DNA from: Pseudomonas sp. BN102
GTDB lineage: Bacteria > Pseudomonadota > Gammaproteobacteria > Pseudomonadales > Pseudomonadaceae
Assembly: GCF_029871245.1 (NCBI RefSeq)
Contig: NZ_SSON01000028.1
Coordinates: 1 to 60,305 of the forward strand
Reading direction: 5' to 3'
DNA length: 60,305 nucleotides
The position numbers and the translations under genes were made by a program. The notes beneath the pieces are model-generated. The model ran no database searches and was not told the origin of the DNA. It saw only the letters and a program-made list of their open reading frames with translations. How positions within the stretch are numbered: position 1 is the stretch's first letter; each line of letters starts with the position of its first letter. Of the stretch, positions 48,339 through 59,856 are shown in pieces.

Positions 48339-48722
48339 GCTTCAGCCCTGTTGGCAGGCCTGTGGCCTGCTCAGCGACTGAAGTCGCCCCCACAAGGCAT
48401 GGCCAATCTCATGTGTAGCGCGGGCTTTCGCTCCCACAAGGACACATTGCCCAGCACACAAGACACGACCAGGCGCTGAGCGGTGCCTGCCTTTCCTTTA
48501 AGCGAATTCATTCGCGAAGGGCAGCGAAGCGGCCCCGTAGGTTGGGCAGAGCGCAGCGAAGCCCAACGAGCCCAGGCACCGAGCAGGCTCTGGCTCCCCT
48601 CACCCCAGCCCTCTCCCGCAAGCGGGAGAGGGAGCTGTCCGTGCGAGCCATCAGCCCTGGCACGTCCCTGTAGGGACGAATTCATTCGCGAAAGGGCCGC
48701 GCAGCGGCCCCACCACATCCCG
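48339..48722. other. 384-bp gene-free region packed with extragenic repeats
   Basis: No gene is seen. It holds GGCAGGCCTGTGGCCTGCTCAGCGACTGAAGTCGCCCCCAC-like sequence (48352-48394), a TTCATTCGCGAAGGGCAGCGAAGCGGCCCC element (about 48499-48537), a GTAGGTTGGGCAGAGCG element (48536-48567), a CCCTCTCCCGCAAGCGGGAGAGGG hairpin (about 48610-48634) and another TTCATTCGCGAAAGGGCCGC element (48668-48713). The hairpin may end the DUF4157 or chemosensory transcripts. Confidence 0.7.
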
Positions 48723-51700
48723 CTACCGCCCCGGCGCCCGCCCCAGCTGCTGACGCATGCGTTTTACCTCGCAATGCAGGTCGCGCTGCTGGAAGGCATC
48801 ACGCAGCTGATTGCGCAGGTCGTCCGGATCCCAGGGGCGGGTGACGAAGCGGTAGATCACTCCCTCGTTCACCGCCTTGAGGATGCTGCCCACCTCGGTG
48901 GCGCCGCAGAGGGCCATGCGGATGGCTTCCGGGTAGATCACCTTGATCCGCCGCAGGAATTCAACACCGTCCATGTCGGTCAGGCTGAGGCCGGTCAGAA
49001 CCACGTCCACCCGTTGCGTGGCCATCAGGTTGAGCGCCGCATCGCTGGAATCGGCGATCAGCATCCGGTAACTCTCCAGGCGCAATGTCCGCCGCAGCGC
49101 GTCGAAGGTGTCGGGGTCGCCATCGACCACCAGCAGGAAACGCTCGTCTCCGTCGAGGATGTTGGCCGGCAAGGTCAGCGCCGAGCCTTCCTGGAGGAAC
49201 TGCAGGCAGGCCTGGGGCGGCAATGGTGGCGAGTAGTAGTAGCCCTGCAGCTCGTCGCAGCCGGCGGCACGCAGGAAGCCCAACTGCCCTACGTTCTCCA
49301 CGCCTTCGGCGATGACCCGGATGCCGAGGTTGTGGCCGATGGTGATCATCGAGCGCACCAGGGAGGCGCTATCGGGTTCGGTGATCACATCGGTGATGAA
49401 GCTGCGGTCGATCTTCAGCTGGCTGAAGGGGAAGCGCTTGAGGTAGCCGATCGACGAATAGCCGGTGCCGAAGTCGTCGATGGAGAAGCGGATGCCCTCT
49501 GCCTTGAGGACGCGCATTTTCACCAGGGCATCGTCGGCATTGGTCATCAGGATGTTTTCGGTCAGCTCGATCTTGACCCAGTGCGGCGGGATGCCATGGA
49601 CCTTCAGCAGACCCAGCACGCGCTCGATGAAGTCGGTCTCGGTGAAGCTGATGGCGGAGAAGTTCACCGCCACCCTGAGGCCCTGGTTGAACACCTCGCG
49701 CCAGATGTTGAGCTGGCGGCAAACCATCTCGAACACATAGAAGTCGATGGAGACGATCCAGCCGGTTTCCTCGGCCAGGGGAATGAACTCATCCGGGCTG
49801 ACCATCTTGCCGCTGCGGTTCCAGCGCACCAGCGCCTCGAAGCCGCACAGGCGCCCGCTCTGCAGGTCCAGCTGCGGCTGGTAGACCACCATGAACTCCT
49901 GGTTCTGCAGGCCCAGGCGGGTTTCCCGCTCCATGGACAGGCGCTTCTGCACCTGGTCGTTCATCTCCGACATGAAGGCGCAGATACGGTTTCGCCCCTG
50001 GTGCTTGGCCTGGTACATGGCGGTGTCGGCATTGCGCAGCAGAGTGATGGCGTCGCGTCCGTCGCTGGGGTAGCAGCAGAAGCCGATGCTGCAGCTCACC
50101 GCCACTTCCTGCTCGTCCAGCATCACCGGCAGGGCGATGCTCTGCTTGAGGCGTTCCAGCCAGGCCACCTGCTCGCCCAACTGGTCGGTTTCCATCAGCA
50201 GCACGATGAATTCGTCGCCCCCCAGGCGCGCCACGGTGTCGATCTCGCGCACCCGCGACCGCAGGCGATTGGCGACCTGGATCAGCAACTGGTCGCCGGC
50301 GTTGTGGCCGAGGCTGTCGTTGACCACCTTGAAGCGGTCGATGTCCATGAAGGCCAGGGTGAAGCGGCTGTGGTTGCGCGCGGCCAAGGCAATGGCCTGG
50401 CTGATGCGGTCGCTGAGCAGGTTGCGGTTGGGCAGGCCGGTGAGGCTGTCGTGGTTGGCCTGGTGCTCCAGTTCCTCCTGGTAGCGCTTGGCTTCGGTGA
50501 TGTCGTGGAGTATGCCGACGAAGTGGCTGACCTTGCCGCGGTCGTTCACCACCGGCGACACCTTGAGGTCGTTCCAGAATTCCGAGCCGTCCTTGCGGAA
50601 GTTGCGCAGCAGCGCCCCGCCCTCCTCCTGGGCCGTCAGAAGCCGGCGGATGTTGCCCAGGTTCGGCTGATCGCGTTCCTCGCCCTGGAGAAAGCGGCAG
50701 TTGCGCCCCAGCACTTCCTCGGCCGAGTAGCCGGTGATGCGTTCGAAAGCCGGGTTGACGTAGACGATCGGCTGGTCGGGCTGCTCGTTGTCGGTGATCA
50801 CCACCGCGTTGACGCTGGCTTCCACCGCCCGCGTGCGGGTACGCATCTCGAGGTCGCGGCGCCGCTGTTCGGTGATGTCCTGGAACACCACGATGGCGCC
50901 CTGGATCACCTCGTTATTGTCGAAGAAGGGTACCGCCGAGTTGAGGATGGTCTTGTGCCCGTCCTTGAAGGTCTGGATGTCGATGACTTCGTTGCGCGAT
51001 ACCTGCCCCTGCCGCACCGCGCGCATCACTGACCAGTCGCTCGCCGTCACCGGCTCGCCGCTGTCGGCCCACCAGCCGCGGTACTGGCTGTAGCCTTCCG
51101 CAGCGCTGGGATGCGGCCCGCCCCAGATCAGGCTGCTCTCCGGATTGCTCATGATCAGCCGGCCCTGCCGGTCGGTCACCAGGACGCCCACCGGCAGGCT
51201 GTCGAGCACGTTGCGCAGCAGCGCTTCGCTCTGCGCCAGGGCCTCGGTACGCTGCTCCACCAGCTGTTCCATGCTCTCGAACAGGCGCACCCGGCCCAGG
51301 GCCATGGCCAGCTGCCGGCCAATGGAGGCCAGGGCGTTGAGGGCTTCCTCGGGCCAGGCCTGGGCATCGCGCTGCACCACGTTGAGCATGCCGATGATCT
51401 CGCCGCCCAGGAGCAGCGGGATGCTCGCGTGTACCGGCTTGCCTGGCAGGCTGGCCAGCGCCGGGCAGCCCTGGATATTGCAGGGCGCGCTCAGGCCGTC
51501 GCTGACCCAGGCGTGCCGGCACGGGCAATCGCGAACGCACCTGATGAGGGCGTCCAGGCCATAGTCGCGGCCGCGCGCACGGGAGCCGGCCAGGCGCACC
51601 GAGCTTTCCGGATCCCGCGAGTCGGCCATCAGCAGCCAGGCGCCGCCAGCGTCGGGAAATTCGAGGATGCGCCGCAGCGCCGCGTCTATCACGTTCTGCT

Positions 51701-52307
51701 CGTTGCGGGCGTCGGTCAGGCCGCTGGTGAAGTGGAACAGGCAGTTGAGCAGCGAGTTGCTGCGGGCCAGTTCATCGTGCTTGACCTGCAGCTCGTGGTT
51801 CAGCCGCACGCCCTGCTCATAAGTGGAGATCAGCAGGTCGAGGATCTGCTGGCGGCCGGCGGTGATGAAATGCCGTTCGCCCTCCAGCACCACCTCCACG
51901 CCCATCTGCACCCGTTCGTGGGTGCGCAGTTCCAGGTTCACCAGGAAGTAGCGGATGCGCGACATCAGGTACTTCTCGTCGAACGGCTTGACGATGAAGT
52001 TGTCGGCGCCCGAGGCGAGCCCATGCACCACGTCGCGGGCATCGGCCAGGGAGGTGACCAGGATCACCGGGATGCTCTGAGTCTGGGCCGAGCCCTTGAC
52101 CTGCCGGCACAGCTCATAGCCGTCCATTTCCGGCATCACGATATCGCTGATGACGATTGTCGGTCGCCGTTCGGCAATCATCCCCAGCGCCTCGACGCCG
52201 TTGCGGGCGACACGCACCCGGCAGCCGACCGCTTCGAGCATGTACTGCAGCTCGGTGGCCTGGGTCGGGCTGTCCTCCACTACGAGGATTTCAGCATCCG
52301 TGTACAT
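48723..52307 (-). CDS. Chemosensory output: REC-GAF-PAS-LOV-GGDEF-EAL-REC c-di-GMP enzyme
   Basis: A 1194-aa protein. The start at 52307 has GGGAGAG upstream; an ATG at 52325 overlapping the cheB stop is an alternative. REC1 has phosphoacceptor Asp55 (VISDIVMPEMDG) and Lys107. GAF (about 185-345) carries five Cys between 257 and 281. PAS spans about 360-480. The next PAS (about 500-605) has the LOV motif GRNCRFLQG with Cys537, Asn569 and Asn579, but Leu600 where LOV domains have Gln. GGDEF is intact (696-700, RxxD at 687-690), EAL is intact (824-826, DDFGTGYSS). REC2 (about 1055-1175) has Gly1106 instead of Asp. It probably both makes and breaks c-di-GMP, controlled by phosphorylation from the CheA at 53421. 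Confidence 0.92.
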   Translation of the reverse strand: MYTDAEILVVEDSPTQATELQYMLEAVGCRVRVARNGVEALGMIAERRPTIVISDIVMPEMDGYELCRQVKGSAQTQSIPVILVTSLADARDVVHGLASGADNFIVKPFDEKYLMSRIRYFLVNLELRTHERVQMGVEVVLEGERHFITAGRQQILDLLISTYEQGVRLNHELQVKHDELARSNSLLNCLFHFTSGLTDARNEQNVIDAALRRILEFPDAGGAWLLMADSRDPESSVRLAGSRARGRDYGLDALIRCVRDCPCRHAWVSDGLSAPCNIQGCPALASLPGKPVHASIPLLLGGEIIGMLNVVQRDAQAWPEEALNALASIGRQLAMALGRVRLFESMEQLVEQRTEALAQSEALLRNVLDSLPVGVLVTDRQGRLIMSNPESSLIWGGPHPSAAEGYSQYRGWWADSGEPVTASDWSVMRAVRQGQVSRNEVIDIQTFKDGHKTILNSAVPFFDNNEVIQGAIVVFQDITEQRRRDLEMRTRTRAVEASVNAVVITDNEQPDQPIVYVNPAFERITGYSAEEVLGRNCRFLQGEERDQPNLGNIRRLLTAQEEGGALLRNFRKDGSEFWNDLKVSPVVNDRGKVSHFVGILHDITEAKRYQEELEHQANHDSLTGLPNRNLLSDRISQAIALAARNHSRFTLAFMDIDRFKVVNDSLGHNAGDQLLIQVANRLRSRVREIDTVARLGGDEFIVLLMETDQLGEQVAWLERLKQSIALPVMLDEQEVAVSCSIGFCCYPSDGRDAITLLRNADTAMYQAKHQGRNRICAFMSEMNDQVQKRLSMERETRLGLQNQEFMVVYQPQLDLQSGRLCGFEALVRWNRSGKMVSPDEFIPLAEETGWIVSIDFYVFEMVCRQLNIWREVFNQGLRVAVNFSAISFTETDFIERVLGLLKVHGIPPHWVKIELTENILMTNADDALVKMRVLKAEGIRFSIDDFGTGYSSIGYLKRFPFSQLKIDRSFITDVITEPDSASLVRSMITIGHNLGIRVIAEGVENVGQLGFLRAAGCDELQGYYYSPPLPPQACLQFLQEGSALTLPANILDGDERFLLVVDGDPDTFDALRRTLRLESYRMLIADSSDAALNLMATQRVDVVLTGLSLTDMDGVEFLRRIKVIYPEAIRMALCGATEVGSILKAVNEGVIYRFVTRPWDPDDLRNQLRDAFQQRDLHCEVKRMRQQLGRAPGR

Positions 52308-52321
52308 GGTGTCTCTCCCAT

Positions 52322-53377
52322 TCATGCATCTTTTGCGGCCAGGCGTTCGGCAATCAGGTTGAGCAAGGCGGCCATGCCGTCCGGCGTCAACACCTGTCGG
52401 ACGGCGTCCAGGCCAATGGCGGCCTGGGGCATGGAATCGATCATGGCGCTGGAAGGCTCCTGCGCCAGCGTCAGCGCACCGCTGCGGCGCAACATTGCCA
52501 ATCCCTCCGCGCCATCGCGGCCCATGCCCGAGAGCTGGATGCCAATGGCCCGCTCGCGGAAATGCTGTGCTGCGGAGCGGAACATGTAGTTGGCCGAGGG
52601 CCGCACCAGTTCCTCTGGCGGGCCACCGTCCAGGGCGACCCGACGTTTGCCGGCGAAGCCCAGGTGATAGCCATCCGGCGCGAGGTAGAGGCACCCCGGC
52701 GCCAGCTCCCGGCCGTCCTCGGCAATCAGCACCGGCAGATGGGTGAGCGTCGCCAGCCAGTCGCGAAAGCTCGGCAGGAAGCCCGTGGCTATGTGCTGCA
52801 CCAGCACCAGCGGCCAGGGCTGCGGCCGCTGCAGGCGCTCCAGCAGGCTCTTGAGCGCCGCCGGTCCGCCCGCCGAGGCGGCGATGGCCACCAGCTGCGG
52901 CGGCGCCTGCACGCATTGCGCCACCAGCTCGGCGAGCGTCTGCTGGCGCGCGGGCTCGCCATTGGCCTTGCGCGGGCGCCGCACTATCTTCACCTGGGAC
53001 ATGCTGCGCACGGTACGCAACAGCTCACCGACCCGCTCGTTGAAATCCTCGGAGTCCGGGCCGCCGGGCTTGTCCAGCACCGCCAGGGCGCCGGCCTCGA
53101 GGGCGCGCATGGCGGTGGCCGAGGCATAGGCGTTGGCGCTGGCGGTGAGCACCACCACCGGTAGCGGGTAGCGCTCGAGGATGTGCTCGGTGGTTTCGTA
53201 GCCATCCATGCCGGGCATGTGCACATCCATGGTGATGATGTCGGGGGTGAAGCGCAGCAGCAGCTTGAGCGCTTCCTCCCCGGTGCCCGCTTCTTTGACC
53301 AGGAATCCCTCACCCTCGAAAATCGCACGCAGCAGCAGGCGGGCAACCGGCGAATCATCCACTATCAGTACGCGCAT
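52322..53377 (-). CDS. Chemosensory methylesterase CheB (WspF-like)
   Basis: A 351-aa protein that removes methyl groups from the receptor for adaptation. The receiver domain (1-125) has DDSPVAR and Asp in ITMDVHMPGMDG. The methylesterase domain (about 160-345) has the catalytic Ser in AIAASAGGPA, His in VQHIATGF and Asp in GMGRDGAEGL. In Wsp systems loss of this protein locks the pathway on; here the same role is inferred. It lies 43 bases after cheA and just before the c-di-GMP enzyme, in the WspE-F-R order. Confidence 0.93.
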   Translation of the reverse strand: MRVLIVDDSPVARLLLRAIFEGEGFLVKEAGTGEEALKLLLRFTPDIITMDVHMPGMDGYETTEHILERYPLPVVVLTASANAYASATAMRALEAGALAVLDKPGGPDSEDFNERVGELLRTVRSMSQVKIVRRPRKANGEPARQQTLAELVAQCVQAPPQLVAIAASAGGPAALKSLLERLQRPQPWPLVLVQHIATGFLPSFRDWLATLTHLPVLIAEDGRELAPGCLYLAPDGYHLGFAGKRRVALDGGPPEELVRPSANYMFRSAAQHFRERAIGIQLSGMGRDGAEGLAMLRRSGALTLAQEPSSAMIDSMPQAAIGLDAVRQVLTPDGMAALLNLIAERLAAKDA

Positions 53378-53420: not shown

Positions 53421-55622
53421 TCAGATCAACCGGCGGATGGCGTCCAGCAGGCTGTCCTGCTCGAAGCCACTCTTCACCAGGTAAGCATTGGCGCCGGCCT
53501 CCAGGCCACGGGCGCGGTCCTCGGCCGAGTGCAGCGCCGTCACCAGCACCACCGGCAACCCGGCCATCTCGCGGTCGGCGCGAATCCGGCGGGTCAACGT
53601 GAAACCGTCCAGCCTGGGCATTTCCACATCCGACACCAGCAGGTCGAACTGCCCTTGTTTCAGTGCATTCCAGGCCTCCAGGCCATCGTTGGCGGTGGTC
53701 ACCTGGTAACCCGCGCCTTCAAGGATCGCCTTCAGCAGACCGCGCGAGGTAAACGAGTCCTCGGCTATCAGCAGGCGCTGGCGCGCGCTGCCGGGGCGCG
53801 CCTGGTCTTGCTGGGCGAAGCTCGAACCCTGGGTTTCCAGGGCGCTGCGATAGAGGTCCCCCGGGTGCAGGATGGGCACCAGCTGGCCGTCCCCCAGCAC
53901 GGTGGCGCCCAGCAGGTTGCGCACCCGTACCAACTGCCGGCCAAGGCCCTTGACGATGATCTCCTGGTCCCCCAGCAACTCCTCCACCAGCAGCACGAAG
54001 CGCTCGCCACGCACCTTCAACAGCAACAGGGTGAGGTCGCCCTCGCCCGGCTCCAGGTGGCCGAGGCCGAGCACTTCGGCCAGGGTCCAGAGCGGCAGCA
54101 CTTCGCCGTCCACGGTCACCGAAGGCCGGTTCTCCAGGGTCTTCATGGCGTCCAGCGGCAGCCGCAGGCAACGCTCCACCGCCAGTGCCGGAACCGCGAA
54201 GACCCGCTCGGCATCGCGCACTATCACGGCGCGAAAGGTAGACAGACTGAGCGGCAGGTGCAGGTGGAAGCAGGTGCCCTTGCCGGCACGGGACTCCACC
54301 TCGATGCGCCCGCCCAGCCGCTCCACCGTCTCCTGCACTATGGCCATGCCCAGGCCGCGCCCGGAGAGGTCGGTGATGATCTGGCTGGTGGACAGCCCCG
54401 AAGCGAAGATCAGCTTGCCGGCCTCGGGGTCCGCCAGGGTCTGGGCCTGTTCCGGGCCGAGCAGGCCGCTGGACACCGCCCTGGCCTTGAGCCGCTCCAG
54501 GTCGATGCCGCCGCCGTCGTCGCTGACCCGCAGCTCGAAGCGGTCCGCCGACTCCTGGATCAGCTCCAGATCCAGGCGGCCCGTCGGCTCCTTGCCGATG
54601 CGGCTGCGCACCTCGGGCTTCTCCAGGCCATGGTCGATGGCATTGCGCAGCAAGTGGGTGAGCACAATGCGCAGCTCGTCGAGGATGCGCTTGTCCACCT
54701 GCAGGCTCGCACCCTTCACCTCCAGGTCGACACGCTTTCCGGCCTGGCTGGCGAGATCCTGGACCATGGCCGGCAAGCCCTCCACCAGGGCGCTGCCGGA
54801 GAGCAGCAGGACTCGCTGTAGTTCGTCGTTGAGGCTGCCGGAGAGTTGCTCCAGGCCCTGCGCCAGGTGGTTACCGGCCCTCGCCAGGCGACTGGCGTTG
54901 AAGTGCAGGCGGTCCAGCTGCAGCAGGCTCCAGTCCAGGTAGTCGAGCACACCTTTGAGGGCATCCGACGTGCCCGGCGGCAGCTCGTCCAGGCCCTCGC
55001 GCAACTGGCGCAGCACCCCGCCGCTGAGCAGGCGCTTGGTGCGCTGCGGCTCGAAGGCGGCCATATGGGCCTGCAGGCTCCGCGCATGGGCCTGGGCCTC
55101 CAACTTGTGCTGGAGCAGTGCCTCGCTCTGGAACAGCAGGGCGTCCAGGCGCTGGGCCGATACCCGCACGGTCGCCGGGTCCGCCGGGAGCGACTCCACG
55201 GCCGGAGGCAGTTCCCCCGGCAGTTCGATCGCATCGCCATCTGCGGCGGCTTCCAGGTTCTCGATCAAGCGCTGCTGGTCATGCTCATCCAGGGCTTGGC
55301 CACCATGCAGCCGTTGCACGGCCTTGAGAGTATGGCGGCACAGCTCCACCCGCTCCGGCGTCAGGCTCAGGCGGCCGTGGCGTACCGCCGCCAACAGGCT
55401 TTCCCAGGCATGGCAGAGCTGCTCGATGGCCGCTAGCCCGGCCGCGCGCGCGGCGCCTTTGAGGCTGTGCACCTCGCGAAACAACGACTCGATGGAATCC
55501 ACCGAAGCCGTAGCCTCGCGCCAGTTGGCCAGACCATCGGCCAGTACGCCGAGGCGCTCTTCCGCCTCGCTGCGGAAACTGGCCAGCAGGCGCTGTCTGA
55601 GGGCTTCCCGATCCAGGCTCAT
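53421..55622 (-). CDS. Hybrid CheA histidine kinase with receiver (WspE-like)
   Basis: A 733-aa kinase. Hpt domain with phospho-His52 (VHSLKGAARAAG), a long helical linker and dimerisation region, HATPase (LLRNAIDHGLEKP, VSDDGGGID, GRGLGMAIV), a CheW-like domain (about 470-600), and a C-terminal receiver (LLIAEDSFTS, Asp in LLVSDVEMPRLDG). A single Hpt domain and one fused receiver are as in WspE of about 755 aa, which phosphorylates the receiver of its output protein. It starts 7 bases after the MCP gene. Confidence 0.94.
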   Translation of the reverse strand: MSLDREALRQRLLASFRSEAEERLGVLADGLANWREATASVDSIESLFREVHSLKGAARAAGLAAIEQLCHAWESLLAAVRHGRLSLTPERVELCRHTLKAVQRLHGGQALDEHDQQRLIENLEAAADGDAIELPGELPPAVESLPADPATVRVSAQRLDALLFQSEALLQHKLEAQAHARSLQAHMAAFEPQRTKRLLSGGVLRQLREGLDELPPGTSDALKGVLDYLDWSLLQLDRLHFNASRLARAGNHLAQGLEQLSGSLNDELQRVLLLSGSALVEGLPAMVQDLASQAGKRVDLEVKGASLQVDKRILDELRIVLTHLLRNAIDHGLEKPEVRSRIGKEPTGRLDLELIQESADRFELRVSDDGGGIDLERLKARAVSSGLLGPEQAQTLADPEAGKLIFASGLSTSQIITDLSGRGLGMAIVQETVERLGGRIEVESRAGKGTCFHLHLPLSLSTFRAVIVRDAERVFAVPALAVERCLRLPLDAMKTLENRPSVTVDGEVLPLWTLAEVLGLGHLEPGEGDLTLLLLKVRGERFVLLVEELLGDQEIIVKGLGRQLVRVRNLLGATVLGDGQLVPILHPGDLYRSALETQGSSFAQQDQARPGSARQRLLIAEDSFTSRGLLKAILEGAGYQVTTANDGLEAWNALKQGQFDLLVSDVEMPRLDGFTLTRRIRADREMAGLPVVLVTALHSAEDRARGLEAGANAYLVKSGFEQDSLLDAIRRLI

Positions 55623-55629
55623 GGCAATC

Positions 55630-57261
55630 TCACAACTTGAACTGGGCTGCCAGTCCCTTGAGTTTCAGACCCAGCTGGTGCAAGTTGCGCGCCGCCAGGT
55701 CGACCTGCCGGGTCCCGCCGACGTTGTCCTGGCTGGCCTGGCGGATGTTCTCCATCGCCGTGCCGATCTGGTCCATGCCGATCATCTGCTGCTGGCTGGT
55801 GACGGCGATCTGCAGGGCCATCTCGCTGGATTCCTCGACGCTGCTGCTGAGGGTGCGGATCGCTTCGCCGCTGACCTGCGCCCGTTCATAACCACTTTCC
55901 ACCGACTTGCTGCCCTCTTCGGCCTGCAGCACCGCCTTGGTCATGGCCTTCTGGATGTCACCGAGGATGCCGCGCACCTGGGCCGTGGCCTGCTTGGACT
56001 GCTCGGCCAGGGTCTTCACCTCCTGCGCCACCACGGAGAAGCCCTTGCCGGCCTCACCGGCCTTCACCGCTTCGATCGAGGCGTTGACCCCGAGCAGGTT
56101 GGATTGCTCGGCCAGGTCGTTCACCGAGGCGACGATTTCGCCGATGGTCTGACTTTGTTCGCCGAGGCGCATCACGCTCTCGGCCACCGCCTGCATCTGC
56201 GCGCGGATCTGGCTCATGCCCTTGAGGGTTTCCTCCACCGACTGGCGCCCGGCCTGGGCGACCTGGCGGGTGCGCTCGGCGCTTGCGGTGACCGCCTGGG
56301 ACTTGTTGCCGGAGAGCACGGCGGTCTGCTTCACCTCTTCCACCGTGGTGGCGATCTCGCTGATGGCGGTGGCGGTTTCCTGGGTACCCGAGGCGACCTG
56401 GGTGGTGACCGCGAGGATCTCTTCGCTGGCGGTGGCCAGCACCGAGATGCCCTCGTTCAACTCCTGTACCAGCTCGCGCAGGTAGCGGCTCATGTTGACG
56501 AAGGCCAGGGCCAGGCGGCCCACCTCGTCCTGGCGGGTGGTGTTGGGAATCTCCCGGGGGATTTCGCCACGGCCGATCTGCTCGGCCCAGCCGGTCAGGC
56601 GCGCCAGGGGCTGGGCGATATGGCGGCTGAGCAGCCAGGCCAACAGCCCGGTGACCAGCACCAGGACCAGGCTGTAGTAGAAGGTCCGCTCTCGCAGGGC
56701 CTCCAGCATGAGAGCCGACTGTTCCATGCCGGCGGTAATGCGCTTGTCGGTGATGGTCACCAGCTCCTGGCCGAGGTCGTAGATCTTCTCCACCCGCTGG
56801 CGCTGCGGTCCACCGATCAGGTTGCGCGCCTCCTCCTGGCGGCCGCTGGCGATCAGCGGCAGCACCTCCTCGTCGCGAACGCGCAGGTAGTCGGCGCGCA
56901 GGGCCTTCATCCGGTCCAGCAGCTCCACGGTCTGCTGGTCATCCACCACCGCCTCACGCAGGCGGTCCAGCAGCTTGTCGTTGGCCTCCGTATTGCGCTG
57001 CAGGTTGTCGTCGCGGCCCTGGATCGAGCCGTCGTTCAGTGCCTGCAGCAGCTCCACCCGTTGCAGTGTGAGGTTGAGCAGCAGCTCCTTCACGTCGGAG
57101 ATCCGCACGTAACGCCGTTTGAACTGCGCCGCCTCCTGCGCCTGCAGACTGGAGAAGCTTTCCAGCGTGTTGAACAGCAGGAAACCGAACGCCAGGATCA
57201 GGGCCGCGAAGGCCAGCATCAGCTTGTTGCCGATCCGCAGGTTCATGAGATTGCCCAGCAT
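55630..57261 (-). CDS. Methyl-accepting chemosensory receptor with a divergent signalling tip
   Basis: A 543-aa receptor. Helix 1 is residues about 13-33, the periplasmic four-helix-bundle-like sensor 34-194, helix 2 195-215, HAMP 213-265, and the long cytoplasmic coiled-coil hairpin follows. The tip (about 383-404) reads AEQSNLLGVNASIEAVKAGE where most receptors have QTNLLALNAAIEAARAGE. It has no C-terminal CheR-tethering pentapeptide. AAGGAG precedes the ATG. Like WspA it is encoded inside its own pathway operon, but after both cheW genes and cheR; the signal (surface contact, small molecule) is unknown. Confidence 0.93.
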   Translation of the reverse strand: MLGNLMNLRIGNKLMLAFAALILAFGFLLFNTLESFSSLQAQEAAQFKRRYVRISDVKELLLNLTLQRVELLQALNDGSIQGRDDNLQRNTEANDKLLDRLREAVVDDQQTVELLDRMKALRADYLRVRDEEVLPLIASGRQEEARNLIGGPQRQRVEKIYDLGQELVTITDKRITAGMEQSALMLEALRERTFYYSLVLVLVTGLLAWLLSRHIAQPLARLTGWAEQIGRGEIPREIPNTTRQDEVGRLALAFVNMSRYLRELVQELNEGISVLATASEEILAVTTQVASGTQETATAISEIATTVEEVKQTAVLSGNKSQAVTASAERTRQVAQAGRQSVEETLKGMSQIRAQMQAVAESVMRLGEQSQTIGEIVASVNDLAEQSNLLGVNASIEAVKAGEAGKGFSVVAQEVKTLAEQSKQATAQVRGILGDIQKAMTKAVLQAEEGSKSVESGYERAQVSGEAIRTLSSSVEESSEMALQIAVTSQQQMIGMDQIGTAMENIRQASQDNVGGTRQVDLAARNLHQLGLKLKGLAAQFKL

Positions 57262-57279: not shown

Positions 57280-57882
57280 CTAATCGGCTGCATCGATGCG
57301 CAGGCTGGAGTCCCCCAGCAGGCGCGCACCGTCCAACACCGTCCATTGATCCGGGGTGACCCCCAGCAAATAGTTCGCCCTGATCCCTGTCAGGTTTGCC
57401 AGGCCGCTCTGCAGGCTGTCGCGCTGGATGCGCGTGATGCCTTGCACCCGATCGATCAGCAGGCCGAACTCCATCTCCCGCCCGCGCAATACCGCCAGGA
57501 AGTTCTTGTCGGAAATGCCCTCCATGGGCAGCTCGAAAAACACCCGCAGATCCAGCACCGAGACAATGTGCCCGCGCACGTTGACTATCCCCAGGACGAA
57601 GGGCGGCGTACCCGGCAGCGGGGTGAACTGCGGCAGCGGCAGGACCGCCGAGACATGCTGCGCCTCCACCGCGTAGACCTCCTGGCCGAGATTGAAGCAG
57701 AGCACCTCCAGCCAGGCGTCCGGCTGTTCCTGCGCGGTACTGCGCGCCCATTCGCGGCTACGCGCGGCCAGCCGCTCCTCGCGGGCCTCGGGGCTGATGG
57801 CGAAGCCGCTGTCGATGCGCCGCTCGAACTCCGCCAGGCGTTCGTGGATTTGGGCCCAATCACCTTCCCGGGTCTCGCCCAT
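57280..57882 (-). CDS. CheW coupling protein 2 (WspD-like)
   Basis: A 200-aa coupling protein with a 55-residue helical N-terminal extension (RLAEFERRIDSGFAISPEAREERLAARSREWA region) followed by the CheW fold (LCFNLGQEVYAVEAQHVSAV, VLGIVNVRGHIVSVLDLR). The extended N-terminus matches WspD. The start shares a TGATG overlap with the CheR stop, so it is translationally coupled. It should link the receptor to the CheA kinase. Confidence 0.93.
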   Translation of the reverse strand: MGETREGDWAQIHERLAEFERRIDSGFAISPEAREERLAARSREWARSTAQEQPDAWLEVLCFNLGQEVYAVEAQHVSAVLPLPQFTPLPGTPPFVLGIVNVRGHIVSVLDLRVFFELPMEGISDKNFLAVLRGREMEFGLLIDRVQGITRIQRDSLQSGLANLTGIRANYLLGVTPDQWTVLDGARLLGDSSLRIDAAD

Positions 57883-59393
57883 CAGGGTTTCGCCTCCATC
57901 AGTTGTTCACAGAGCCGCAGCAACTGCACACAGCTCAGGCCATCGCCCTCGGGCACCGGGGCCTCGGGCGGCAGCCGGCCGAGCAGCTCGCGGCAATTGC
58001 GCAGTGCCTTGTCACTGGCTGGCTGCTGCCCGCGCGCGCGCAGCAGCCGGGCCAGGTGGAAGTGGGCGAGGATGAATTCGGGGTCCAGGTACAGCACCTT
58101 CTGCAGGGCCACCAGGGTGGCCGGCTCATCGCCGGCCTGTTGCGCCAACATGGCCGCCAGCCAGTGGGCAGTGGCCGAGGTGGGGTCCAGCGCCAGGGCA
58201 CGCTGCAGCCAGGAATCGGCGTCGTCTCCGCGCTGCTCGTCGGCCCAACTGCGCACCATCAGCAGGCAGGCCTGGTGCCTTTCAGCCTGGGTCAGTCCGG
58301 AGCTGGCCAGGTACTCCAGCAGGATTTTCCGGCTTTGTGGATGGCGCCCCTGTTCCAACGCCTGCCGGGCCCGCTGCCAGAGCGAGTCGCAGCCGCGTTG
58401 CTGGGGAAGCTCCGGGGCACTCGGCGGCGGCGTCGCTTCTGACCACTTCGCCTGCGGCGCGGACACTGGCTGCCAAAGGAAAGGTTGCTCCACCCGTGGC
58501 AGCGGCGGCGTCACGGCCGGCCGATGTGGCAGACGGCTTCCGGCCCGCAGGGCGCAGTTGCTACCGGCCCAGAAGCCATTGAACCCGGCCTGGGTGGCCA
58601 GTCCCGCCTCCACCGCGCTCAGCAGCAGCAGGCCCTCGGCGGTGAGGCAACTCAACAGGCGGCGCAGGGCGCCGGCGGACTGCTCCGGGGAGAAGTACAT
58701 CAGCACGTTGCGGCAGAGGATCAGGTCCAGCTCCGCCAGCCCCTTTTCGGCGTTGGGCAGGCGGCCCTGCACCAGGTTGTGACGGAAGAAACGGATGCGC
58801 CCGCGCCATGCCGGCTTGACCCGCCAGTACCTGCCCTCGGCCTGGAAGTAACGTTGGCGGAACTCGTCCTCGTTGCGGCGGAAGGCGTTTTGGCCGTAGC
58901 GGCCCTGTTCCGCACGATCCAGGAAACCCTGGTTGAGGTCACTGGCAAAAAGCTCGATCGACCAGCTGGAGCGATCCTTGCCCAGCAGGTCATCGAGTAG
59001 AAACAGAAGGCTGTAGGCCTCTTCGCCCGTGCAGCAGGCCGCGCTCCAGATTCGCAGGTGCCGATAGCCCTGCTCGCGGCGCCGCGTGATCAGCGGTCCC
59101 AGATGCTGGCGGGCCAGCCAGTCGAAAGCCTCGGCATCGCGACGAAAATAGGTTTCGCCCACGGTGAAGACCGGCGTCAGCGCCTGCACCTGGGCCTCGT
59201 CCCACTCGGCGAAGGCCAGTGCCTCCAGCCAAGTCGGCAAGTCGGCCTGGCCCTGTTCCAAGGCCAGCAGCCTGAAGCGGCGTAGCAGCTCGCTGCGCCG
59301 CGCACCGGAAAAATCCAGCCCCAGGTGCTGGTGGACTTTGTGCAATAGCACCTCGAGTACCCGTGCCGAGCAGATGGGCTCAATCAGGTCCAT
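57882..59393 (-). CDS. CheR methyltransferase with C-terminal TPR domain (WspC-like)
   Basis: A 503-aa protein. The start at 59393 (MDLIEPICSARV) overlaps the CheW stop by 14 bases. Residues 1-80 are the CheR N-terminal helix domain; the catalytic part has the SAM site IWSAACCTGEEAYSL, FASDLNQGFLDRAEQG and LDLILCRNVLMYF. After a Pro-rich linker (about 295-340) come tetratricopeptide-like helices (about 345-480, ALALDPTSATAHWLAAMLA). This CheR-TPR form methylates the cognate receptor in Wsp-type pathways. Confidence 0.93.
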   Translation of the reverse strand: MDLIEPICSARVLEVLLHKVHQHLGLDFSGARRSELLRRFRLLALEQGQADLPTWLEALAFAEWDEAQVQALTPVFTVGETYFRRDAEAFDWLARQHLGPLITRRREQGYRHLRIWSAACCTGEEAYSLLFLLDDLLGKDRSSWSIELFASDLNQGFLDRAEQGRYGQNAFRRNEDEFRQRYFQAEGRYWRVKPAWRGRIRFFRHNLVQGRLPNAEKGLAELDLILCRNVLMYFSPEQSAGALRRLLSCLTAEGLLLLSAVEAGLATQAGFNGFWAGSNCALRAGSRLPHRPAVTPPLPRVEQPFLWQPVSAPQAKWSEATPPPSAPELPQQRGCDSLWQRARQALEQGRHPQSRKILLEYLASSGLTQAERHQACLLMVRSWADEQRGDDADSWLQRALALDPTSATAHWLAAMLAQQAGDEPATLVALQKVLYLDPEFILAHFHLARLLRARGQQPASDKALRNCRELLGRLPPEAPVPEGDGLSCVQLLRLCEQLMEAKP

Positions 59394-59856
59394 GGTCGCC
59401 CCTTGCAAGCACCATGGCTTCGGCCAGACGCTCCTCGTCCGCATCGGAAAGCACCTGCTCCACATCCTGGATCAGCAGCAGCCCTTCGGCCGTGCGAACT
59501 ACACCCTTGAGCAGCGCCGAGGGCACCTGCGGATGGGGAGCGGGGGCAAAGTCTTCGGCGGCGCAGCTGGCGGCGGCCTCCACCGCCTCCACGGGCACCA
59601 GCAACTCCCGCTGCTGCGTCTTCAACCAGAGGAAGGGCTGCCAGAGAGCCGGCGTGGCCGAAGGCCAAGCGAAGCGCCGGGCCAGGTCCACCACCGGCAA
59701 CACCTGCCCGCGAACGTTGACCAGTCCGAACACCGTATCAGGAGCGCCGGGGAGCGGCGTCCACAGCAAAGCGGGGAGCACACGGACGACCGAGTCCAGG
59801 CTCACCGCCAAGTGCTGCCCCGCCAGCCAGAACGGCAGCACGAAATATCTATCCAT
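59380..59856 (-). CDS. CheW coupling protein 1 (WspB-like), first gene of the operon
   Basis: A 158-aa single-domain CheW protein with VLPFWLAGQHLAVSLDSVVRV near the start and FGLVNVRGQVLPVVDLA in the second half. It heads the seven-gene operon, whose members all overlap or are less than 50 bases apart. It lies 281 bp before the 5S rRNA terminator, so the operon promoter should lie in 59857-60137, but I see no clear sigma-70 or sigma-54 box there. Confidence 0.9.
   Translation of the reverse strand: MDRYFVLPFWLAGQHLAVSLDSVVRVLPALLWTPLPGAPDTVFGLVNVRGQVLPVVDLARRFAWPSATPALWQPFLWLKTQQRELLVPVEAVEAAASCAAEDFAPAPHPQVPSALLKGVVRTAEGLLLIQDVEQVLSDADEERLAEAMVLARGDHGPD

Follow-up and report, generated by a model that had tools for sequence, protein, structure and literature searches.

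The locus analyzed here raises the question of whether a LOV domain without the glutamine through which such domains usually signal can serve as a light input, in this case inside the output protein of a chemosensory operon. The gene in question lies on the minus strand (48723..52307) of a 60,305-nucleotide stretch of the Pseudomonas sp. BN102 genome (contig NZ_SSON01000028.1, positions 1 to 60,305; hereafter, the window) and, judging from its open reading frame, translation and Pfam matches, encodes a response regulator of 1194 amino acids with the domain order REC-GAF-PAS-LOV-GGDEF-EAL-REC. The LOV domain (PAS_9; residues 493-605, 50493..50831, minus strand) was delineated by the NCBIfam YtvA family model, PDB matches, and a structural model with a fold search. 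According to the translation, it contains Cys537 (50697..50699, minus strand) at the adduct-forming position within GRNCRFLQG, Asn569 and Asn579, and, at the usual position of the LOV Gln, Leu600 (50508..50510, minus strand) within FVGIL. An earlier prediction made from the sequence of the window (below, the original prediction) had placed a LOV domain in the second PAS region, at about residues 500-605, had singled out these four residues, and had assigned the domain to the output protein of a chemosensory system, here a response regulator at the end of a che operon; the present analysis bears it out on each of these counts, the last one through Pfam matches and conserved gene order.

The identity of the domain was addressed by comparison with models of LOV and non-LOV domains. 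Searched alone against NCBIfam, it matched the YtvA family at 147 bits, the LOV histidine kinase model at 136 bits and two histidine-kinase subfamily models at 131 and 121 bits, whereas the non-LOV PAS models scored 94 bits or less (S-box 94, DibA 80, NifL 74, DosP 40, FixL 25). The original prediction had named one outcome that would speak against a LOV domain, namely that non-photoactive PAS families would fit better, and these scores show the opposite. The columns of Asn, Arg and Gln residues that we take to contact the flavin read NCRQRNN in the window, and every column examined agrees with LOV; in one ortholog (L050), Leu replaces the Gln of the FLQ motif. A PDB sequence search with the domain returned 166 distinct matches (best E 2.5e-34), the leading entries being LOV structures by title, and a Foldseek search with an AlphaFold2 model of the domain (predicted local distance difference test score 82.3) yielded LOV or LOV-derived chains only among the 50 matches listed. 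In the fold comparison, however, the redox PAS domain of MmoS tied with LOV chains by Z, so this comparison was not used to decide between LOV and redox PAS, and the assignment is based on the sequence instead: on these data, the domain is a LOV lacking the usual signalling Gln. Because Gln is documented as dispensable (PMC9098866), we file the domain as a LOV-dQ variant, not as a canonical LOV; in agreement with the definition of that class, the LOV-conserved residues are kept and Gln is replaced, here by Leu600.

The original prediction further took the Leu to mean weak light sensing, and on this point the published record, as far as the account in PMC9098866 (2022) goes, speaks otherwise. 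That work describes about 350 LOV receptors that naturally lack the Gln, most of them with Leu or Ile in its place; substitution of Leu for Gln left YF1 largely unimpaired and gave about 17-fold regulation in NmPAL compared with 10-fold for the wild type; and a Gln-less (Met) LOV-GGDEF fragment from Mesorhizobium loti yielded 145 Miller units in the dark and 30 in blue light, indicative of a blue-light-repressed cyclase. The Leu thus does not imply weak sensing, since natural Gln-less receptors of the Leu and Ile type exist and blue light acts on the M. loti fragment. From the same work, a Leu-type LOV would be expected to recover more slowly than a Gln-type one, with its band shifted about 10 nm to the blue. 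The parent protein of that fragment (WP_140774521.1, LOV-GGDEF-EAL; PMC9098866) resembles the present one in having a Cys-bearing, Gln-less LOV directly before GGDEF-EAL but differs in the Met at the Gln position, and its description there makes no mention of receivers or a chemosensory operon.

The combination of Cys and Leu is fixed in a family of orthologs. Full-length orthologs were found in 5 of 18 genomes of the genus, and with the N-terminal half as the query, orthologs were detected in 17 of the 398 genomes sampled from the Pseudomonadaceae family, representing 5 of 19 genera. The resulting set comprises 24 loci including the window; taking into account three repeat genomes, these correspond to 21 genomes and 19 distinct LOV sequences. 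Cys and Leu are each kept in all 24 loci, although the LOV identity to the window goes down to 69%, which excludes a sequencing error or a single-strain oddity as the source of Leu600. Named carriers are Pseudomonas sp. GD04019, P. subflava, Stutzerimonas stutzeri NT0128, Pseudomonas sp. F(2018), Pseudomonas sp. PDM15, a Pseudomonas metagenome-assembled genome and P. tumuqii. Seven further candidate loci contained no LOV ortholog (weak non-LOV PAS matches in L060 and L070, no match in the other five). The LOV domain is among the better conserved parts of the protein: in all 11 ortholog rows compared, its identity is at least that of GGDEF and EAL and exceeds that of the first PAS domain (PAS1) and GAF, the least conserved domains being PAS1, GAF and the C-terminal receiver (REC2). 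In Stutzerimonas stutzeri NT0128, for example, identity is 78% for the N-terminal receiver (REC1), 77% for LOV, 68% for GGDEF, 66% for EAL, 54% for GAF, 50% for PAS and 51% for REC2.

The domains around the LOV retain most of the positions expected of a regulated enzyme of cyclic di-GMP (c-di-GMP) turnover (all coordinates on the minus strand). The reading frame extends from the ATG at 52307 (residue 1), a start backed by the orthologs, with an alternative start possible at 52325, to the stop codon at 48723-48725. REC1 (51942..52295; Pfam Response_reg) contains the phospho-acceptor Asp55 together with E11, D12, T85 and K107, all identical in 12 of 12 rows (the window and 11 ortholog rows). It is followed by GAF (51288..51707; Pfam GAF_2), PAS1 (50862..51224; second stretch matched by Pfam PAS/PAS_4) and the LOV domain. 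According to Pfam and a residue table, the GGDEF domain (49977..50459) has the GGDEF motif (696-700) and the RxxD I-site (R687, D690) intact, and the EAL domain (49215..49919) has the EAL motif (824-826) and the acidic and Lys positions intact; we take these motif positions to have their customary functional roles. With both motifs intact in the window, the protein is predicted to be a bifunctional c-di-GMP enzyme. One ortholog (L057) has SGDEF in place of GGDEF. The D-to-D spacing of the linker between LOV and GGDEF is 18 residues, the same as in the three Gln-type LOV-GGDEF-EAL paralogs of the genus that were checked. One such paralog in the window genome, a 1938-codon open frame on contig C31, likewise has a Cys-bearing LOV with this spacing to GGDEF but possesses the Gln (FIGVQ) and lies outside the present operon. 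REC2 (48783..49139; second Pfam Response_reg stretch, residue table) is degenerate in the window, with Gly1106 at the phospho-acceptor position. Across the 12 rows (window, L031-L034, L052-L058), eight have Asp at this position, whereas the window and L034 have Gly and L031 and L053 have Glu, and the conserved Lys is replaced by Arg, Thr or Ser in six of the 12, a pattern that indicates decay of REC2 across the family. On the plus strand, an 849-codon open frame (48483-51032) runs antisense to the response regulator gene and is probably a by-product of high GC.

The response regulator gene closes a run of chemosensory genes, all encoded on the minus strand and assigned by Pfam unless stated otherwise. 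Immediately upstream of it is cheB (52322..53377; REC and methylesterase), and further upstream are, in turn, a gene for a cheA-type kinase with a C-terminal REC (53421..55622; Hpt, ATPase and CheW domains), a methyl-accepting receptor (55630..57261; 4HB_MCP_1, HAMP and MCPsignal), the first cheW (57280..57882), cheR (57882..59393; weak C-terminal TPR matches below the Pfam curated cut-off) and a second, cheW-like gene (59380..59856), an open reading frame recognized by gene order and by tblastn cross-matches to the first CheW in relatives. All 11 loci checked show the order CheW-CheR-CheW-(receptor)-CheA-CheB with the response regulator gene last; the receptor slot is occupied in 10 of these, being empty in P. 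subflava (L053) and holding two receptors in L032 and L057. Thus, the input to the pathway varies, whereas the output is kept.

The pathway is distinct from Wsp. The Wsp system (WspA-F, WspR) is likewise an ACF-type che operon that ends in a c-di-GMP response regulator and includes a CheA with REC and a 4HB receptor, but the present operon has the receptor fourth rather than first (the wsp gene order here being the one that we assume) and a REC-GAF-PAS-LOV-GGDEF-EAL-REC output rather than REC-GGDEF. The window genome, which has five CheB methylesterase genes, contains on contig C73 a separate receptor-CheW-CheR-CheA-REC-CheB-REC-GGDEF run in a Wsp-like order, with CheA only 31% and the receptor 28% identical to those of the present operon. 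The assignment of the operon to Wsp was therefore rejected, and the low identities mark it as a second, separate pathway. In the account of PMC8552884, the only Wsp outputs described are WspR (REC-GGDEF) and WspH (a hybrid kinase). CheR-TPR clusters with GGDEF, EAL, PAS and GAF response regulators are assigned to the ACF class in the relevant part of PMC3447774; the present operon, a che cluster with a multidomain response regulator, conforms to this description, with the TPR matches of CheR below threshold.

The wider relationships of the domain were examined by searching it alone in two overlapping genome samples, 369 from the class and 398 from the phylum, and taking only places with E of 1e-25 or better. 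Removal of three orthologs (L137, L167, L168) from the 164 places found left 161, which, given this cut-off, are those most like the present domain, not all LOVs. Both Cys and Gln are present in 113 of these places, Cys without Gln in 16, Gln without Cys in 8, and neither in 24. Trees were built without the Cys and Gln columns, leaving out L167 and L168 as repeats. In the full tree, the ortholog family (19 rows, support 100/99) lies inside a set of 33 rows (83/79, bootstrap not settled) with a single Gln-bearing member, L277, a long branch without Cys. When the last strand and linker were also excluded and eight long-branch rows dropped, the family fell in a set of 32 rows, none with Gln (Shimodaira-Hasegawa-like approximate likelihood ratio test, SH-aLRT, 87), in which 10 of the 13 non-orthologs lack Cys. 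Addition of 13 non-LOV PAS rows (eight long-branch rows dropped) retained a set of 27 (77), with the Gln-type LOVs placed elsewhere; these 13 rows are not recovered as a single group and support for the deeper branches is low (SH-aLRT 38-57), so the outgroup was not usable to polarize the loss of Gln. The trees, weakly supported as they are, suggest that the family belongs to an almost wholly Gln-less LOV lineage. This placement would allow acquisition of Cys before Gln, although the branches are too poorly supported to settle the order. The most far-reaching version of this scenario, which we consider unlikely, is that LOV evolution has left a living remnant in this family, a Cys lineage that never had Gln or lost it very early, with a working photosensor in which Cys and Leu are both under selection; through its connection to a chemosensory array, receptor-driven phosphorylation and blue light would act together on one c-di-GMP enzyme.

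Genes for the CheA core, CheW, CheR or receptors were found in none of the six relatives from this lineage inspected within about 9 kb, so the chemosensory link appears to be particular to the Pseudomonadaceae family. One relative (L143 / L305, in genome G732) is a REC-GAF-PAS-GGDEF-EAL protein in which Pro stands in for the Cys and Ile for the Gln, and no che genes lie near its gene. The window genome itself encodes a LOV-like domain that keeps the Gln but has Trp in place of the Cys (L204, C70:149599-149964), as well as two further LOV domains with both Cys and Gln (L195, C31:39295-39693; L203, C65:116782-117135); given the latter two, the organism may make general use of blue-light sensing.

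On balance, we lean towards the reading that blue light is a functional input to a c-di-GMP enzyme gated by phosphorylation. It is favored by the LOV-model scores and flavin-contact columns, the constancy of Cys and Leu and the high LOV identity among orthologs, the conserved che operon, the intact catalytic and REC1 positions, the equal linker spacing and the existence of established Gln-less LOV receptors. We infer flavin binding, photochemistry, phosphotransfer, enzyme activity and the sign of the response along the following lines. The domain is predicted to be a flavin-binding photosensor of the LOV-dQ type, most likely with flavin mononucleotide (FMN), in the output protein of what would be a second, non-Wsp, ACF-type chemosensory pathway. 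The receptor and CheA would phosphorylate Asp55 of REC1, and blue light would induce the Cys537-flavin adduct and protonation of flavin N5. In place of the Gln relay, water and the beta sheet would carry the change to Asp602 in the DIT motif, from where it would travel along the coiled-coil linker into the GGDEF-EAL module; with REC1 and LOV both reaching this module, both inputs would set one c-di-GMP activity. Light might lower c-di-GMP, a guess prompted by SL2 and RmcA, for which light is associated with phosphodiesterase activity or lower c-di-GMP in the account of PMC8846402. SL2 of Synechococcus elongatus is similar to the present protein in that LOV is joined to GGDEF-EAL but is described in that account as a canonical LOV, not as a chemosensory receiver protein (PMC8846402). 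The PASd domain of RmcA from P. aeruginosa is a LOV-like domain feeding GGDEF-EAL in Pseudomonas, with a light effect reported, and lacks the Cys, whereas the present domain has the Cys and lacks the Gln.

Several points weigh against a working light input. Among the 161 places, Cys is missing in 24 of the 40 Gln-less ones compared with 8 of the 121 that bear Gln (Fisher p 1e-11, ignoring relatedness), and both residues are absent from the closest relatives outside the ortholog family (L138, at about 60%, L143, L147, L171 and L172), so that this lineage may use a different chemistry. In an alignment to what we take to be the AsLOV2 sequence, the equivalent of Asn414 is Ala501, so the proposed water relay would need a different partner; and the sign of the response is a guess. 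The association between Cys and Gln was not accepted as proven coevolution because the phylogenetically independent pairs are too few (9 pairs; on average 2.9 in the same direction, 0.1 opposite and 6.0 without difference; median p 0.25).

One alternative is a flavin redox or oxygen sensor, with FMN or flavin adenine dinucleotide bound, flavin reduction as the signal, and the Cys in a tuning or secondary role; we regard this as somewhat unlikely, given that Cys537 is invariant across the 19 distinct family sequences but variable in sister rows and that NifL-type models reach half the LOV-model score. Alternatively, the domain might be photochemically competent but uncoupled, a dimerization spacer in which the adduct forms while Leu blocks the relay to GGDEF-EAL, as suggested by the half circular dichroism amplitude of AsLOV2 Q513L and an earlier simulation with attenuated propagation, both as given in PMC9098866. 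That Leu permits signalling in YF1 and NmPAL according to the same account, and that LOV is more conserved than PAS1 and GAF in every ortholog row, unexpected for a mere spacer, makes this distinctly unlikely. Finally, PAS domains beside GGDEF are plentiful (53 PAS_9 matches in the window genome) and Leu or Phe at the Gln position is common in non-LOV PAS, so a non-LOV PAS with a chance Cys and another ligand or none has to be considered, but the complete set of LOV positions, the LOV-specific model scores and the invariance over 19 distinct sequences render it very improbable.

Neither the LOV-dQ class nor LOV-GGDEF-EAL proteins are new, and ACF pathways whose c-di-GMP outputs carry PAS/GAF domains are likewise known; the present family may figure among the about 350 published LOV-dQ receptors. 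In the open-access literature, we found no description of a LOV, or of a Leu-type LOV with a fixed Cys, as a conserved chemosensory-operon output, nor of joint chemosensory and photoreceptor input on a single c-di-GMP enzyme, which suggests that the fixed Cys and Leu family and its tie to a chemosensory array are new. Gln-less LOV receptors came to light through a sequence search and one tested fragment. The orthologs described here form a coherent natural family, with Cys and Leu constant over five genera beside relatives without Cys, so that a single protein now allows direct tests of the role of Gln and of the photoreceptor status of the Leu type. Should light act on this protein, a chemosensory pathway and a photoreceptor would converge on a single c-di-GMP enzyme.
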